A stretch of DNA of 64,000 nucleotides from Lacipirellula parvula (GTDB lineage Bacteria > Planctomycetota > Planctomycetia > Pirellulales > Lacipirellulaceae): the NCBI RefSeq assembly GCF_009177095.1, contig NZ_AP021861.1, forward strand, positions 4,756,501 through 4,820,500. The letters are read 5' to 3'. This document shows, one piece after another, positions 17,036 to 26,016 of the stretch. Both the position numbers and the translations under genes were made by a program. The notes beneath the pieces were generated by a model. That model did no database searches. It was not told the DNA's origin and saw nothing but the letters and a program-made list of their open reading frames with translations. Positions within the stretch are counted from its first letter, which is position 1. Every line of letters starts with the position of its first letter.

Positions 17036-17127
17036 TTATTTTGCCCCGTCGCTCCCGTTCGATTATAAACGCCGTACGACTTTTCGCCCGCGCCCTGAAT
17101 CTGACGCAATTCCCCGGGAAAAGCCCG

Positions 17128-18822
17128 ATGCCTGGTCTCCGCTGGCTCTGTTCGACCTGGTGCCTGCTCGCCGTGCTGGCAGCCGATGCGGCAGCGGATG
17201 ATCAAGCTGCTCCGCCAACGGCCCCCTCGATCCGCCTCAACACCATCGGCTACCTGCCTGGCAAACCGATGGTCGCCACGGTCGCTGCAGTCACCACGGA
17301 CGGGGGCAAGTATCAGATCCGCCGGCTCCGCGACGGGGCGGTCGTGTGGGAGGGCGATCTGTCGGCGCCGCAGCCGAACGCCGACACCGGCGAACAGCTC
17401 GCAACTGCCGACTTCACGAAACTCGCCCCCGCGGCGGGTGAGTACGAAATCGTGCTCGTCGACTCGGGCGAACGCACAAGATTTCACGTTGCAGAGAACC
17501 TTTACCACGAGCCGTTCCGCGTGGCGACGCGGGCGATGTATTTGTGGCGCTGCGGCATGCCGGTCTCCGGCGATCACCAAGGCGCCCACTTCGAGCATGG
17601 CCCCTGCCATCTCGAGGACGCTTACCTCGACCATGTCGGCGGCGGCCATGTACAGCGGGCGAGCGTCGGCGGCTGGCACGACGCCGGCGACTACAACAAG
17701 TACGTCGTCAACGCGGCCGCGACCGTGGGGATGATGTTCCGCGCTTGGGAAGATTTTGGGCCGGCGATTCAACAGATCAAACTCGACATCCCGCCGACGG
17801 ATTCCAAGCTGCCCGAGTTCCTTGCCGAGATCAAATGGGAACTCGATTGGCTGCTAACGATGCAAGCCGACGATGGCTCGGTCTATCACAAGGTAAGCGC
17901 GCTGAACTTCGGCGGCCTGATTGCCTCGGACCGCGACAGCGATCCGCGTTACCTCGCCCCTTGGAGCAGCGCGGCGACCGCCGCGTTCACCGCGACGATG
18001 GCCCAAGCGGCGCGGCTCTACGCACCGTACGACGCGACGTTTGCTGACCGGTGCCGGGCGGCTGCGCTCCGCAGTGCGGAGTTCTTGCGAAAGCACCCCG
18101 AAGACCACGAGGCGGACCAATCGGCATTCAACACCGGCGGCTACCATGCACCAGACGGCGACGACCGCCTGTGGGCCGCGGCGGAAGTGTGGGAGACGAC
18201 CGGCGATGCTGCCGCTTTAGCTGAACTTGAAGAGCGCCTCGCCGCTCATCCGAACTTCGACGTCGACTGGGATTGGCAGCATCTTAAGAATCTCGGACTG
18301 CTGACTTATCTCTTCTCTGAACGCGAAGGGAGAAACCCCGAGCTCCTCGAGCGATTGCACAAAGGCGTCATCGCCGCGGCTGATGAGACGGTCGCGGCGG
18401 CGGCGAGTCATGGGTACGCGCGGCCGTTCACGAAATATTACTGGGGCTGCAACGGCACGGTCGCTCGTCAGGCGACCGGACTCGAGGCCGCCTACCGACT
18501 CTCCGGCAACGAAGCCTATCGCCACGCCATGCTCGACGGGCTCAATCATCTATTCGGCCGCAACTGCTTCGGCCGCTCGTTCGTCACGGGCCTCGGCGGG
18601 CAACCGCCGCTGTTTCCCCATGATCGTCAATCGGCTGGCGACGCCGTGGCGGCGCCGTGGCCTGGCTATCTGGTCGGCGGCCCCAACCCGAAGGCGACCG
18701 ATTGGTCCGACGCCACGGAGGACTATCGAACCAACGAAATCGCCATCAACTGGAACGGGGCGTTGATCTATGCGCTTGCTTCGCAGTTGCTGCCGGTCGA
18801 CCACTCCGCAACATCACGCTAA
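17128..18822 (+). CDS. GH9 endoglucanase-like glycoside hydrolase
   Basis: A 564-residue exported enzyme. The signal peptide is MPGLRWLCSTWCLLAVLAADAA. An N-terminal CelD-type Ig-like domain spans ~33-120 (IRLNTIGYLPGKPMVA), and an (alpha/alpha)6 GH9 domain spans ~125-560. Catalytic features visible: GGWHDAGDYNKYV with Asp185/Asp188 (base) and the C-terminal acid Glu537 in NEIAINWNG. The HDRQS and GGPNP elements of GH9 are also present. Family members cleave beta-1,4-glucans by inversion (cellulose, xyloglucan, mixed-linkage glucan). ATG 17128 is chosen over 17041 because the signal peptide starts there and GGGAAAAG precedes it. No dockerin or PEP-CTERM is present, unlike its GH44 neighbour. 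Confidence 0.9.
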   Translation: MPGLRWLCSTWCLLAVLAADAAADDQAAPPTAPSIRLNTIGYLPGKPMVATVAAVTTDGGKYQIRRLRDGAVVWEGDLSAPQPNADTGEQLATADFTKLAPAAGEYEIVLVDSGERTRFHVAENLYHEPFRVATRAMYLWRCGMPVSGDHQGAHFEHGPCHLEDAYLDHVGGGHVQRASVGGWHDAGDYNKYVVNAAATVGMMFRAWEDFGPAIQQIKLDIPPTDSKLPEFLAEIKWELDWLLTMQADDGSVYHKVSALNFGGLIASDRDSDPRYLAPWSSAATAAFTATMAQAARLYAPYDATFADRCRAAALRSAEFLRKHPEDHEADQSAFNTGGYHAPDGDDRLWAAAEVWETTGDAAALAELEERLAAHPNFDVDWDWQHLKNLGLLTYLFSEREGRNPELLERLHKGVIAAADETVAAAASHGYARPFTKYYWGCNGTVARQATGLEAAYRLSGNEAYRHAMLDGLNHLFGRNCFGRSFVTGLGGQPPLFPHDRQSAGDAVAAPWPGYLVGGPNPKATDWSDATEDYRTNEIAINWNGALIYALASQLLPVDHSATSR

Positions 18823-19125: not shown

Positions 19126-19160
19126 GAAACCCCAGCGTCTTCCACAGAACCGTGACCAAG

Positions 19161-20171
19161 ATGCCCGCAACGATTTACGACATCGCGCGCCAGGCTGGGG
19201 TTTCGAGCTCCACAGTCGCCCGCGTCCTCCGCGGCGACACGAAGGGCGATCGCAAGGACAGCGCCGAACGGGCGGCCCGCATCCGGCAAATCGCCGACAG
19301 CCTCGGCTATCGCCCGAACCTGCGGGCGCGGGCCTTCTCTGAGCAACGCACCAAGGGAGTCGGCCTCCTCTACACCGACGACGCGTGGGTGTTCGAAGGC
19401 GTCAACGATAAGGTCTTGCAAGGCCTCGTCCGCGAATTGCGGAAGCACGATCATCACCTTCTCCTCGTCCCCGTCGACGAAGGGGGCGACTGGGAAGAAC
19501 TGCTGCTCGGCGGGCACGTTGACGGATGCGTCACGTTCCAGCCACTCTCGGAACCAGTGCGCAACGGCATCCGCCAAGCTGCGCTCCCCTGCGTGCTGCT
19601 GGGCGACAACTCCGACTGCGATCTGCCGCACATTGTCGTCGACGACGTCGCCGGCTCTTACTCCGCGGCCCGTCACTTGATCGCGCTCGGCCATCGCCGC
19701 ATCGGGCTGTACGTTCACAACACGGTCAAGCCGCACTGCAGTATTCAAGAACGCTTCCAAGGTTTCGAAACCGCGATGACGGAAGAGGGGCTGGAGCCCA
19801 ACTTCTGGCATTGCTCGGAAGACGAAATGATCTCGGTCCTCACGCGCGGCGGCGCTAGGCCGACGGGACTCATTTGCTATAGCGATCTCGAGTCGACGCT
19901 TATCGGCCACGCGATGTGGCAATACGGGCTGAAAATCCCCGCCGACCTCAGCCTGATCGGCTTCAACGATAAGTTCGCGACGAAGTACATGACGCCGCCA
20001 CTGACGACGGTGGGCTTCGACGCGAACCAGATCGGCACGCTTGGCGCCGAGTTGATCATCCGCAGTCTCACGAGCGACGGTTTGTCCGAAGATCAACCGC
20101 CGACGTCGATCCAAGTGAAAACGCAACTGATCGTGCGCGGCTCCACCGCCGCTCCGCCCAAGAACGCCTAA
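19161..20171 (+). CDS. LacI family transcriptional regulator
   Basis: A 336-residue repressor. The DNA-binding helix-turn-helix is at residues ~4-25 (TIYDIARQAGVSSSTVARVLRG), followed by the hinge (RIRQIADSLGYRPNLRARAFS) and a periplasmic-binding-protein-like sensor domain to the end (GVGLLYTDD, DDVAGSYSAARHLIALGHRRIG, LIGFNDKF, TTVGFDANQIGTLGAELI). Effector is probably a sugar. ATG 19161 is preferred over the upstream in-frame GTG 19152. It lies between GH9 and a PEP-CTERM/DUF1559/GH44 block on the same strand and probably controls one of them and itself through the repeats at 18981-19125. Confidence 0.9.
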   Translation: MPATIYDIARQAGVSSSTVARVLRGDTKGDRKDSAERAARIRQIADSLGYRPNLRARAFSEQRTKGVGLLYTDDAWVFEGVNDKVLQGLVRELRKHDHHLLLVPVDEGGDWEELLLGGHVDGCVTFQPLSEPVRNGIRQAALPCVLLGDNSDCDLPHIVVDDVAGSYSAARHLIALGHRRIGLYVHNTVKPHCSIQERFQGFETAMTEEGLEPNFWHCSEDEMISVLTRGGARPTGLICYSDLESTLIGHAMWQYGLKIPADLSLIGFNDKFATKYMTPPLTTVGFDANQIGTLGAELIIRSLTSDGLSEDQPPTSIQVKTQLIVRGSTAAPPKNA

Positions 20172-20292: not shown

Positions 20293-20934
20293 ATGATGCA
20301 GCGAAGCAAACTCCCCGCGCATGTAATTGGCGCAACCCTGGTCGCATTGTTGTACTCAGCGTGTCCCGCACAGGCCGACATGTTGCTCTCCGGATTCGAA
20401 GGAGACCTCACGTCATCCGCGGGCCCCGCCTGGGCGACGAATCTGACTCGTAGTTACACGGCGGTCGGAGCGACGCAGGGCGCCACGGCGCTACAACTCA
20501 CGCACGGCACTGGTTGGACGCAAGACTTCATTCTCGACGGTGGAGCTGTCGCTCCGCTGGTCGCGGCCAGCACGAAGTTCACGCTCGACGCCACGACGCC
20601 GGCCACCTCGGAATGGCGGCAGCTTTTCATCGTGATGCAAGGCGCCGGCCTCGGTTGGTCGCAACGCGGGCCGTGGGAACTCCCGGCCGGCGTCACGACG
20701 CCGGTGACGCTCGACCTGCAAGCCGAAGGTTTTAACACGGCAGCCGCGGCGGGCGACAAATCGTGGTGGCAGATCGTGTTGATCGTCCAAGGCGGCGACA
20801 CGGGAGCGCCGTCGCAAATCACCACGACGATCGACAACATTCGTTTGAACCCTGTGCCCGAACCAGCGACTGTCGGTTTGGCGCTCGGCGGAATGATCGG
20901 CATGGCGCTCGTCCGTCGACGCCGTGCTGCGTAA
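20293..20934 (+). CDS. PEP-CTERM protein, beta-sandwich (paralogue of the next gene)
   Basis: A 213-residue exported protein: signal peptide (residues 1-28, cut near AQA-D), a carbohydrate-binding-module-like beta-sandwich (MLLSGFEGDL, WRQLFIVMQG, TTTIDNIRLN), and a C-terminal PEP-CTERM tail (VPEPATVGLALGGMIGMALVRRRR) for exosortase-dependent sorting. The ATG is preceded by AAAGG. It aligns by eye with the protein at 21246, which has the same start (LLSSFDTDLSSSLG), WRQAFVVLNG and STIDNIRF, but carries an inserted dockerin. It may bind polysaccharide at the cell surface. Ligand unknown. Confidence 0.8.
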   Translation: MMQRSKLPAHVIGATLVALLYSACPAQADMLLSGFEGDLTSSAGPAWATNLTRSYTAVGATQGATALQLTHGTGWTQDFILDGGAVAPLVAASTKFTLDATTPATSEWRQLFIVMQGAGLGWSQRGPWELPAGVTTPVTLDLQAEGFNTAAAAGDKSWWQIVLIVQGGDTGAPSQITTTIDNIRLNPVPEPATVGLALGGMIGMALVRRRRAA

Positions 20935-21245: not shown

Positions 21246-22151
21246 ATGAACCGCAACACTCTTCGATCCAGCAGACGCCTGGCCGGTTGCATCGCACTAA
21301 TCGCAACCATCTTCTTCGGCAACGCCGCCGTCGTGAACGCTGACACGCTACTCTCCTCGTTTGACACAGATCTGAGCAGCTCGCTCGGCGTGAATTGGGA
21401 AGTCTTTGGACCGAATTGGTCAACCCAGCATGTCGCCCAACTGTCTCAAGGAACGGGGGCCCTCCGCGTTCAACACAACCCAAATTGGGAAGTCGGCCTC
21501 AAGCTCGTCGGCGGCGAAGCCCTCGCGCAACTGATCACCACGAGCGATCGACTCGAATTCGACGCGATGGGAGCGTACGGCATGGCTTGGCGTCAAGCAT
21601 TTGTCGTCCTCAATGGAAACAATGAATACGTTGGCTTTCAACAAACCGAAGAGTTTGGATTGCCGGTTCCAAGCGACCCGTTTAATCACATCGTCATCGA
21701 ATTGACCGATGCGAACCGCAATGCCGCTGGCGCGCAGAATTGGAAGGCGATGGCTCAAGCATGGCTAAACGCTCCCGCCGGCAATACGAAAACTTACTTC
21801 GAGCTGATGATCGGCTTCCAAGGAGGCACCAACGCGCCAACAGCCGACTTCAACTTCGATACCGCCGTCGATGGGAAGGACTTCCTAATCTGGCAGCGCA
21901 ACTTCGGCAACATGGAAGCAGGGCCTGAGCAGGGCGATACAAACTTCGACGCAATCGTCGACGGCGTTGATCTGAACGCCTGGAGTACCGAGTTCGGTCG
22001 GCCAGTCACGTCCACCATCGACAACATTCGCTTCACCACGACGCCGGCAATTTCGGCCGTGCCCGAACCGGCGAGCGGACTCGGCTGCTTCATGGCTTTC
22101 GCACTCACTGCGGCGGCACGGCGACGTCACCGATCTCACGTAAGCGCATAA
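21246..22151 (+). CDS. PEP-CTERM protein with internal dockerin cassette
   Basis: A 301-residue exported protein: signal peptide (~1-33), a beta-sandwich like the gene before it, then two dockerin-type calcium loops at ~201-254 (DFNFDTAVDGKDFLIWQRNF and DTNFDAIVDGVDLNAWSTEF), then the last strand of the sandwich (STIDNIRF) and a PEP-CTERM tail (VPEPASGLGCFMAFALTAAARRR). The dockerin thus lies inside the domain rather than between domain and tail. ATG 21246 is preferred over GTG 21240; AAAAGGG sits 7 nt before it. It is likely surface-attached, with a role in polysaccharide binding or assembly. No cohesin is encoded in the window. Confidence 0.82.
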   Translation: MNRNTLRSSRRLAGCIALIATIFFGNAAVVNADTLLSSFDTDLSSSLGVNWEVFGPNWSTQHVAQLSQGTGALRVQHNPNWEVGLKLVGGEALAQLITTSDRLEFDAMGAYGMAWRQAFVVLNGNNEYVGFQQTEEFGLPVPSDPFNHIVIELTDANRNAAGAQNWKAMAQAWLNAPAGNTKTYFELMIGFQGGTNAPTADFNFDTAVDGKDFLIWQRNFGNMEAGPEQGDTNFDAIVDGVDLNAWSTEFGRPVTSTIDNIRFTTTPAISAVPEPASGLGCFMAFALTAAARRRHRSHVSA

Positions 22152-24024: not shown

Positions 24025-26016
24025 ATGAGGCGACGACGCATGACGTTCAATGCTTGGCGCGGACTTCTCGCCATCGGCGCACTCCAGGCGGCGCTCTCTC
24101 TCTCATCGACGCCGGCCCGCGCGATCACGCCCGACAATCCCGGCGCCGCCGACGTACGGCTGACGGTCAACTCGCTTGCCAAGCCTGCCCGGCCAATCTC
24201 GCCCTACATCTACGGCATGAACTTTTTCGCCGGCTCGTCGCTGAGCAATCCGGTGACGCTCGACCGGCTCGGCGGCAATCGCTGGACCGGCTACAACTGG
24301 GAAACCAACGCCTCGAACGCCGGCAGCGATTGGTATCACCAGAGCGACAATTTTCTTACCAACGGCCAAAGCAATACGGCACCCGGCTTCGCGGTGCTTG
24401 GCTCATTGCAGTCGGCCGCCGCGCACGATCGGGCCCTCATCGTCACTGTGCCGACCGCCGGCTATGCCGCCGCGGACGCATCCGGGCAAACGGTTACCGA
24501 AGCACAAGCGGCTCCGTCGTCCCGCTGGAAGGAAGTCGTTGCGCAAAAAACGACGAAGTATCCGGGGGCGTCGCTATCGCTCACGCCGAACAAAACCGAC
24601 GGTTACGTGTTCACCGACGAATTCGTCAACTGGGTCGAGAAAACGAAGCAGCCGGGGCAGGAGGTTTTCTACAGCCTCGACAACGAGCCCGGCTTGTGGA
24701 ACAGCACGCACGCGCGACTCCACCCGAGCCAACCCACGTTCGCTGAGCTCCGCGACAAGACGATTGCCCACGCGGCCGCGATCAAGAACGTGAATCCCAA
24801 CGCAAAAGTCTTCGGCGGCGTCGGCTACGGCTGGCAAGACTTCGTGCAGCTACAAGACGCCGGCGACCGCGTGACGTCACCCTCGCATCCCGGCGGCGAC
24901 GAGTCGGGCGAACTTCATTTCTACGAGTGGCTGCTCAAAGAGACCGCCGCCGCGGAAGCGGCGCAAGGCCGCAAGCTGATGGATGTGCTCGATTTTCATT
25001 GGTACCCGGAAGCGACCGGCGGCGGCGTCCGCATCGTCGAGAACAACAATTCGCCGGCCGTCGTCGCGGCGCGTGTCCAGGCGCCGCGCTCCCTGTGGGA
25101 TCCGACGTACGTTGAAACGAGTTGGATCAGCCAATGGGGCACTTGGAGCGGCAGTCCCGGCAACCCGGGCCCGATTAAACTGCTGCCGCGCGTCCAGCGC
25201 GACATCAACGACTTCAACCCCGGCACGCGGATCGGCATCACTGAATACAACTACGGCGGCACGAATCACATTTCGGGCGGCATCGCTCAGGCCGACGCGC
25301 TCGGCGTCTTCGGCGTGCAGGACGTTTTCGCGGCGACCTTTTGGAGTTTGCACGGCGATAGCCAATCGCAGTACGCCGCCGGGGCGTTCAACATGTACCT
25401 CAATTACGACGGCAACGGCGGCAGCTTCGGCGACGAGTCGATCACCGCCGCAACGAGCTCGCTCGATCAGTCTGCGGTCTACGCCAGCCTCGATTCAGAA
25501 GATCCGAACCGCATGGTGCTCGTCGCGATCAACCGCACCGCCGCGGCGAAAACGACGGCGCTGGAAGTGACGCACGACCAACGGTTCGATCTCGCCGAGG
25601 TTTACCAACTCACCTCCGCCAGCGCGACTCCGCAGCGGGTCGCTGATATTCCAATCGAGCTGGTCAACGCCTTTCTCTATACAATGCCCGCCTACAGCGT
25701 TTCGACGATCGTGCTCCGCAGCGGGGCTGACGGTGATTTTAATCTCGATGGCGTGGTCGATGGCGACGATCTCTCTGTTTGGAAAACCGGCTACGGCACG
25801 CCAAGCGGCGCGACCTTCCGCGATGGCGACAACGACCGCGATGGCGACGTCGACGGCGACGACTTCCTCGCTTGGCAACAGGCCGCGTCGGGCAGCGGCT
25901 CTACGACTGTTCAAGCCGCCGTTCCCGAACCTAGTTGCGTCGCGCTGTCGCTCATCGCGCTCGGCATGCTCAGCCAACGGGGGCGAAAACCCGCAGCACG
26001 CGCGGCAACACGGTGA
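24025..26016 (+). CDS. GH44 endoglucanase/xyloglucanase-like with dockerin and PEP-CTERM
   Basis: A 663-residue exported enzyme: Arg-rich N-region and signal peptide (~1-33), then a GH44 catalytic domain (DRLGGNRWTGYNWETN at ~80-95; acid/base Glu221 in SLDNEP; nucleophile Glu407 in GITEYN) and its beta-sandwich (to ~570). Two dockerin-type loops follow (DFNLDGVVDGDDLSVW, DNDRDGDVDGDDFLAW) and a PEP-CTERM tail (VPEPSCVALSLIALGML). Family members cleave beta-1,4-glucans including xyloglucan. An alternative ATG at 24040 has GAGG 9 nt upstream. The last 47 bp overlap, tail to tail, the lipid kinase on the other strand. Confidence 0.88.
   Translation: MRRRRMTFNAWRGLLAIGALQAALSLSSTPARAITPDNPGAADVRLTVNSLAKPARPISPYIYGMNFFAGSSLSNPVTLDRLGGNRWTGYNWETNASNAGSDWYHQSDNFLTNGQSNTAPGFAVLGSLQSAAAHDRALIVTVPTAGYAAADASGQTVTEAQAAPSSRWKEVVAQKTTKYPGASLSLTPNKTDGYVFTDEFVNWVEKTKQPGQEVFYSLDNEPGLWNSTHARLHPSQPTFAELRDKTIAHAAAIKNVNPNAKVFGGVGYGWQDFVQLQDAGDRVTSPSHPGGDESGELHFYEWLLKETAAAEAAQGRKLMDVLDFHWYPEATGGGVRIVENNNSPAVVAARVQAPRSLWDPTYVETSWISQWGTWSGSPGNPGPIKLLPRVQRDINDFNPGTRIGITEYNYGGTNHISGGIAQADALGVFGVQDVFAATFWSLHGDSQSQYAAGAFNMYLNYDGNGGSFGDESITAATSSLDQSAVYASLDSEDPNRMVLVAINRTAAAKTTALEVTHDQRFDLAEVYQLTSASATPQRVADIPIELVNAFLYTMPAYSVSTIVLRSGADGDFNLDGVVDGDDLSVWKTGYGTPSGATFRDGDNDRDGDVDGDDFLAWQQAASGSGSTTVQAAVPEPSCVALSLIALGMLSQRGRKPAARAATR

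Follow-up and report, generated by a model that had tools for sequence, protein, structure and literature searches.

Dockerins are usually regarded as end or linker modules. The type I cellulosome dockerins of Clostridium and Ruminococcus resemble the module described here, in a protein designated P2, in having two calcium loops and in being joined to carbohydrate-active proteins. In the available portion of a survey of Ruminococcus flavefaciens, the dockerin was C-terminal in 156 proteins, internal in 32 and N-terminal in 19 (PMC2930009); "internal" denotes there a place in the chain, with no interrupted domain described in that portion, whereas the dockerin of P2 splits a domain. According to the accessible parts of two further reports, the internal dockerins of R. 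flavefaciens bound cohesins, as did the C-terminal ones (PMC5301203), and the ends of a dockerin can clasp together (PMC5934362), a property that suits insertion into a loop. A cellulosome combines a multi-cohesin scaffoldin with many dockerin-bearing enzymes; in the genome studied here one cohesin ORF was found against about 180 sampled dockerin ORFs. The planctomycete "planctosome" (PMC6461901) likewise places dockerins and cohesins outside cellulosomes; it was proposed for peptidases, in another planctomycete family, and the accessible part of that paper describes no in-domain dockerins. Domain insertion, in which one domain interrupts another, is known more generally, some families acting only as inserts (PMC13114784), and a term search of the accessible text of that paper found the words dockerin, cohesin and EF-hand absent. 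In the literature on inserted or internal dockerins, on planctomycete or non-cellulosomal dockerins and on domain shuffling, dockerins inside domains were not recognised in the titles and abstracts of the matches listed, which included few subscription papers, and in a similar set of listed matches none combined "dockerin" with "PEP-CTERM".

The window, that is, the whole 64,000-nucleotide stretch of Lacipirellula parvula DNA that was analysed, lies in a genome of 6.92 Mb and carries a cellulose-degradation cluster in the order GH9 cellulase, LacI regulator, P1, P2, small protein, DUF1559 protein and GH44 enzyme. The small protein 3' of P2 had no match in the Pfam scan. The signal peptides of P1 and P2 were assigned by reading of the sequence, as was a dockerin-like loop pair of the GH44 enzyme, which stands in the usual place, after the domain and before VPEP. 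The features are as follows.

17041..18822, plus strand: GH9 cellulase, carrying a CelD_N domain and belonging to the conserved locus (Pfam E=8.7e-78; synteny).
19152..20171, plus strand: LacI-type regulator, part of the conserved locus (Pfam scan; synteny).
20293..20934, plus strand: P1, with signal peptide, uninterrupted CBM-like jelly roll ending TTTIDNIRL, and PEP-CTERM tail, without dockerin.
21246..22151, plus strand: P2, with signal peptide, dockerin-interrupted jelly roll and PEP-CTERM-like tail (BLASTP, alignment, profile).
21348..21842, plus strand: the P2 jelly roll up to the insert, matching positions 1-143 of the 157-position profile (profile; strands E50-52 to E185-193 of a weak model).
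21846..21998, plus strand: P2 dockerin-like module with two complete calcium loops, within the jelly roll (own-genome profile, 64.2 bits).
22002..22040, plus strand: STIDNIRF, the strand that closes the P2 jelly roll, matching profile positions 145-157 (profile; model strand E254-264).
22056..22151, plus strand: P2 PEP-CTERM-like sorting tail, with VPEP, a hydrophobic stretch and an arginine-rich end (sequence reading; sub-threshold profiles).
24025..26016, plus strand: GH44 enzyme (Pfam GH44, E=5.1e-53).

P1 (213 aa) and P2 (301 aa) share 29% identity over 196 columns in BLASTP (E=2e-14), the local alignment ending at ...QGG-T-AP, where the P2 insert starts, while MAFFT brings TIDNI and the PEP motif into register past the insert. 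These alignments bear out the paralogy proposed in an earlier note on this DNA. At 29-36% identity, the two are old paralogues and not near copies. The idea, also put forward there, of an insertion between adjacent paralogues is not supported. Ten uninterrupted relatives, of which six lack a dockerin and four carry it after the domain, were used to build a jelly-roll profile, which matched P2 over positions 1-143 (79.1 bits) and, beyond the dockerin, over positions 145-157 (3.8 bits, weak alone); with the dockerin excised, a single match over 1-157 reached 94.9 bits. In the P2 protein of G029, pieces of 91.3 and 8.3 bits gave 116.6 after excision; in that of G037, pieces of 70.4 and 4.0 gave 73.1 bits, with no gain, the automatic cut being too wide. 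Alone, the post-dockerin piece of the internal-dockerin proteins scores 3.8-8.3 bits. As judged from sequence, the P2 dockerin splits a CBM-like jelly roll between its penultimate and last strands; it does not stand between complete domains, and its placement within the domain agrees with the earlier note. The extent proposed there, 21846-22007, keeps its start and loses its end, since the profile dockerin stops at 21998 and the remainder is linker. Two independent records show the same architecture, Lacipirellula limnantheis NZ_CP036339.1 and the MAG PNKX01000010.1, and it is therefore not an assembly error.

The AlphaFold model of P2 is weak (mean pLDDT 51.5, below 50 in the dockerin region, six sequences); that of P1 (mean pLDDT 57.5) places the last strands, E160-168 and E175-186, adjacent in the chain. 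Compared with solved structures, the P2 model appears as a jelly roll, with a top Z of 11.9 over 139 residues and many CBMs among the matches, in a re-comparison confined to the chains on Foldseek's list. The ten best alignments end at model residues 264-268, past the dockerin and the following strand, and all include the strand at 22002..22040. The modelled fold resembles the jelly rolls of CBM27, CBM11, CBM22, CBM28 and CBM29 (Z about 9.5-11), at 9-20% identity; P2 differs from them in being interrupted, and its sugar binding is putative. Non-CBM chains (Cry11Aa, meprin beta, a virus turret) also reach Z 9.9-10.7 against P2, and the matches of the P1 model form a more mixed list (best Z 10.4). 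At E<=1, Pfam gave no CBM family in P1 or P2 apart from a sub-threshold match of P1 to the glycan-binding SGBP_B_XBD (E=0.038).

The insert of P2, DFNFDTAVDGKDFLIWQRNFG...GDTNFDAIVDGVDLNAWSTEFG, contains by reading two loops of the form D-x-N-x-D-x3-D-x2-D, in agreement with dockerin type I (PF00404), for which D-x-[ND]-x-D-x3-D-x2-D followed each time by a helix is expected; the low-confidence model has helices H213-221 and H234-239/H243-250. The Pfam profile Dockerin_1 (PF00404) gave the module 14.9 bits, under its gathering cut-off of 22.9, and for this reason the module is named "dockerin-like", although such a cut-off is a convention and not a structural feature. When the profile was instead made from dockerins of this genome, with P2 itself possibly among the seeds, the score was 64.2 bits over P2 residues 201-251 (51 residues, 21846-21998). 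The P2 tail reads VPEPA...RRRHR. With TIGR02595 (cut-off 16), P1 scored over the threshold (20.2 bits) and P2 under it (12.8), while by the Pfam PEP-CTERM profile (cut-off 20.7) both were under, P2 with 14.0 bits; one exosortase is encoded elsewhere in the genome (E=9.9e-56). The cohesin profile PF00963, which can miss divergent cohesins, matched at E<=1 a single ORF of this genome, of 4005 codons on the minus strand (G000 6326607-6338621; L245:108-12122), with 43.7 bits over two cohesin-like stretches that are followed by a dockerin of its own.

The jelly-roll family was searched in 43 genomes and found in 10; the domain occurs in 10 of 396 genomes of the order and in 3 of 392 in the phylum sample, namely the window's own and two remote ones. 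An internal dockerin is present in four genomes of the genus Lacipirellula (G000, the genome studied here, G034, G036 and G037) and in G029, of another genus, where its sequence type differs from that of Lacipirellula. Unforeseen in the earlier note, G010, G019, G035 and G040 carry the dockerin after the last strand of a complete domain. Dockerin-free copies were found in G000, G034, G036, G029, G010 and G019 (a fragment in G038 was left out), so that copies with and without a dockerin coexist in three further genera (G029, G010, G019). The order GH9-LacI-P1-P2 with GH44 nearby is shared by G000, G034 and G036; G029 has the same locus genes with GH9 on the opposite strand, G037 lacks P1, and other genomes vary. 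Relatives of P1 and P2 also lie in LacI/glycoside-hydrolase loci of other genera (L088, L089, L090, L091), where gene order is varied and the dockerin-free copy is sometimes absent.

Among G000, G034 and G036, the dockerin is the best-conserved part of P2, with 89-93% protein identity vs 78-79% in the sandwich and pN of 0.04-0.08 vs 0.12-0.14, while synonymous divergence is near or at saturation in both (pS 0.61-0.81). Since synonymous sites are near saturation while the dockerin protein is the best conserved, the insert is old and selectively kept, and the module, its two calcium loops intact, is under purifying selection. The transfer had been thought recent; this view fails on the near-saturated synonymous sites, on the presence of the internal dockerin in five genomes of two genera, and on the lack of a near-identical donor among the sampled dockerins of the genome. 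As a recent copy of another gene the P2 dockerin was rejected: among the matches listed for 185 sampled dockerin hits of this genome, some of them overlapping, the best DNA match by bit score had 75% identity over 100 nt and the next-best 80.6% over 62 nt.

In a tree of 15 rows, all of which have a DN-type last strand, the internal-dockerin group forms one side of a branch (support 70/65). When the very long row G040 is left out, all dockerin carriers fall on one side (89/94.6), with the internal dockerins as a subgroup (75/68) and the "after" ones as a weakly supported one (64/44.7). On the other side are the six dockerin-free copies, and the loss from P1 in many lineages that would have told against an insertion was not seen. 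AU tests on the 15 rows rejected no arrangement, and in BLASTP, P1 was a better match than P2 for the "after" proteins of G010, G019 and G035. On a plain reading there is one dockerin-bearing lineage, of putative orthologues, in which the place of the dockerin differs by one strand, a change that may have run in either direction.

The dockerin sample of the genome comprised, among the matches listed, 294 places in 117 regions and 180 ORFs, 179 of them with a profile dockerin; in the usual order, the median distance between the last repeat and the PEP motif is about 17 residues. Further interrupted domains were found through longer post-dockerin tails and then by a search with one such case. 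An unnamed domain of 120 residues, without a Pfam match in the proteins scanned, gave 40 profile hits in the genome, equal to 37 domains once split pairs were joined. A dockerin interrupts three copies: L115 and L146 share one site, and L227, whose second dockerin repeat is degenerate, has a second one (the other 33 copies were not each read by eye). In G036, G035 and G034, the counterparts of L146 are interrupted where L146 is. Excision of the dockerin raised the pieces of L115 from 35.5 and 42.0 to 81.3 bits, of L227 from 34.8 and 49.5 to 98.3, of L146 from 31.7 and 25.3 to 63.1 and of L218 from 25.2 and 23.1 to 53.6, modest gains of 4-14 bits over the sum of the pieces. L106 is a probable third split site; its last strand is recognised by a G-x-V-x-Y resemblance, and the profile match grew by a single position on excision, from 110 to 111. 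The same unnamed domain occurs uninterrupted in a secreted protein at the edge of the window (minus strand, about 1-1812, the ORF being truncated at the window start), followed by the start of a dockerin-like repeat.

A beta-helix cap is interrupted in L205 (profile 2-43, dockerin, profile 42-79) and likewise in L223 of G036, and is whole in L204, L138, L152, L235, L240 and L241; here, joining the pieces gave a score close to their sum (39.3 vs 38.2; 36.5 vs 39.4). In total, the genome has five clear proteins of this kind (P2, L115, L146, L227 and L205), with four clear sites in three host families, and L106 as a further, probable case. Such dockerins in other, unrelated domains suggest that the module behaves as a plug-in part. 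The notion of a cassette thus draws more support from the other hosts than from the P1/P2 pair: recurrence in other folds of the genome speaks for it, while its recent movement is not supported. A dockerin before a DN-type strand as a common design was discarded, P2 being the only case among 135 sampled ORFs with readable repeat and PEP motif; the other DN match in that set, L163, proved to be a missed second repeat.

Among the top 60 dockerin DNA pairs, 47 have hosts without a mutual BLASTP hit. High DNA identity across unrelated hosts, at most about 81% in the best 32 of the 60, was not used as proof of recent movement, because protein conservation together with codon bias could produce it, and exact repeats of 63-66 nt within some dockerin ORFs were an artefact of overlapping hits of one ORF. 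At the protein level, the internal dockerin of G037 gave a score of 155 with its G000 counterpart, higher than with any of the 177 other dockerin hits sampled in G000 (maximum 153), and the internal dockerins of these two genomes therefore represent one lineage. When the "after" dockerins were compared with the internal ones of G000, G034 and G036, 59-98% of this 177-member pool scored as well or better; for the G029 internal dockerin against that of Lacipirellula, 93% of the G000 pool scored as well. The G029 dockerin resembles other dockerins of G029, and also those of G010 and G040, with 90 matches at E<=0.001 in G029, 73 in G010 and 3 in G019. DY..WR stands in the first repeat at 14 of the 14 G029 loci read, P2 included, and most of the 13 further loci share a worn second loop, in what is a biased sample of best matches to the query. 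Against such a genome-wide style, the "after" dockerins of G035 (L056), in the window's genus, and of G019 (L054), in another, show a mutual similarity exceeding that of 93-97% of the G000 pool. In the two genera compared, the P2 dockerin thus matches the style prevailing among the dockerins of its genome, with one comparison contrary; we take it as a lead, and not as a result, that either in-domain dockerins arose separately or copies were replaced or homogenised within a genome.

The reading preferred here is that P2 is likely a secreted, probably surface-held protein of a cellulose locus, with a CBM-like jelly roll that tolerates a dockerin-like module before its last strand. Concerning the origin of this arrangement, an ancestral dockerin standing after the domain may have shifted, inside the gene, to a place one strand further in, for instance through tandem duplication of last strand and dockerin with loss of the outer copies. 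Sequence is known to change position within a gene in type I restriction specificity subunits (PMC3077401), the accessible part of that paper dealing with a restriction-modification subunit and not with a dockerin. Such a move fits the tree without G040, with carriers on one side (89/94.6) and internal ones as a subgroup (75/68), the occurrence of internal and "after" genes in the same locus, and the status of "after" as the usual order both in the genome and in G040. It is nevertheless unlikely: the "after" proteins of G019, G010 and G035 are nearer to P1 by BLASTP, their orthology to P2 resting on the tree, the internal dockerins of G000, G034 and G036 are no closer to the "after" ones than random (59-98% of the pool), no remnant strand was seen, and the AU tests reject no arrangement. 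It is improbable that a P2 ending at the dockerin acquired the last strand and tail of its neighbour P1 by 3' recombination, even if P1 copies and four of the five internal P2 copies read TTIDN, STIDN or similar and the corresponding residues are TIIDN or TVIDN in the "after" proteins of G010, G019 and G035, for the tails past the strand are not alike within a genome and a prior loss of the strand would be required. Hardly credible is a jelly roll complete without its last strand, with TIDNIRF present by chance or as part of a linker; this stretch is indeed short and gives 3.8 bits by itself, but its profile coordinates are contiguous, a DN-type last strand is found in all 15 tree rows and the structure alignments include it.

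Independent insertions or replacements, by which dockerins of local type entered these proteins on separate occasions, once or twice ahead of the last strand and also behind it, are a serious possibility, which we nonetheless hesitate to accept. The internal dockerin of G029 is of a type common in that genome (90 matches; DY..WR at 14/14 loci), 93% of the G000 pool score as well as it does against the Lacipirellula one, and in-domain dockerins recur at other sites; however, the G029 loci are a biased sample of best matches to the query, the dockerin type shared by G035 and G019 contradicts a style proper to each genome, the host tree brings the internal rows together (75/68), and a loop struck twice would have to be a preferred site, while one insertion followed by homogenisation would look identical. 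A broader proposal, tentative and on balance doubtful, is that the dockerin of the Lacipirellulaceae is a mobile cassette, repeatedly plugged into loops of unrelated beta domains and kept to one style per genome by replacement or concerted evolution, each genus having its own dockerin at the same or a neighbouring loop.

For the preferred reading, a jelly roll tolerant of the module, the DNA and its translations show that the domain is interrupted, that this arrangement is conserved across the genus and that two further families of beta domains in the genome are interrupted in the same manner. A dockerin, as a compact calcium-folded module whose ends meet, could be plugged into a surface loop with the host fold left intact. 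In the usual order of domain, dockerin and PEP-CTERM, the dockerin would lie between domain and anchor; one strand earlier, it would lie at the end of the sandwich that is far from the anchor, with its docking face outward. The predicted partner is a cohesin, perhaps that of the 4005-codon ORF; alternatively, the role may be purely structural, the dockerin perhaps only stiffening the protein. Natural in-fold dockerins reveal loop sites that tolerate a dockerin, and matched related domains with none, one after or one inside make the effect of dockerin position measurable. If the one-style-per-genome pattern held on an unbiased sample, the origin of the large planctomycete dockerin repertoires would become testable, the contrast being replacement by copying vs divergence under the specificity of one cohesin. 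Apart from the PEP-CTERM proteins, the genome has a second class of dockerin proteins (for example L192, L191, L190 and L214), without a PEP motif, in which the dockerin is followed by a long Ala/Ser/Glu-rich tail, often of 70-210 residues.
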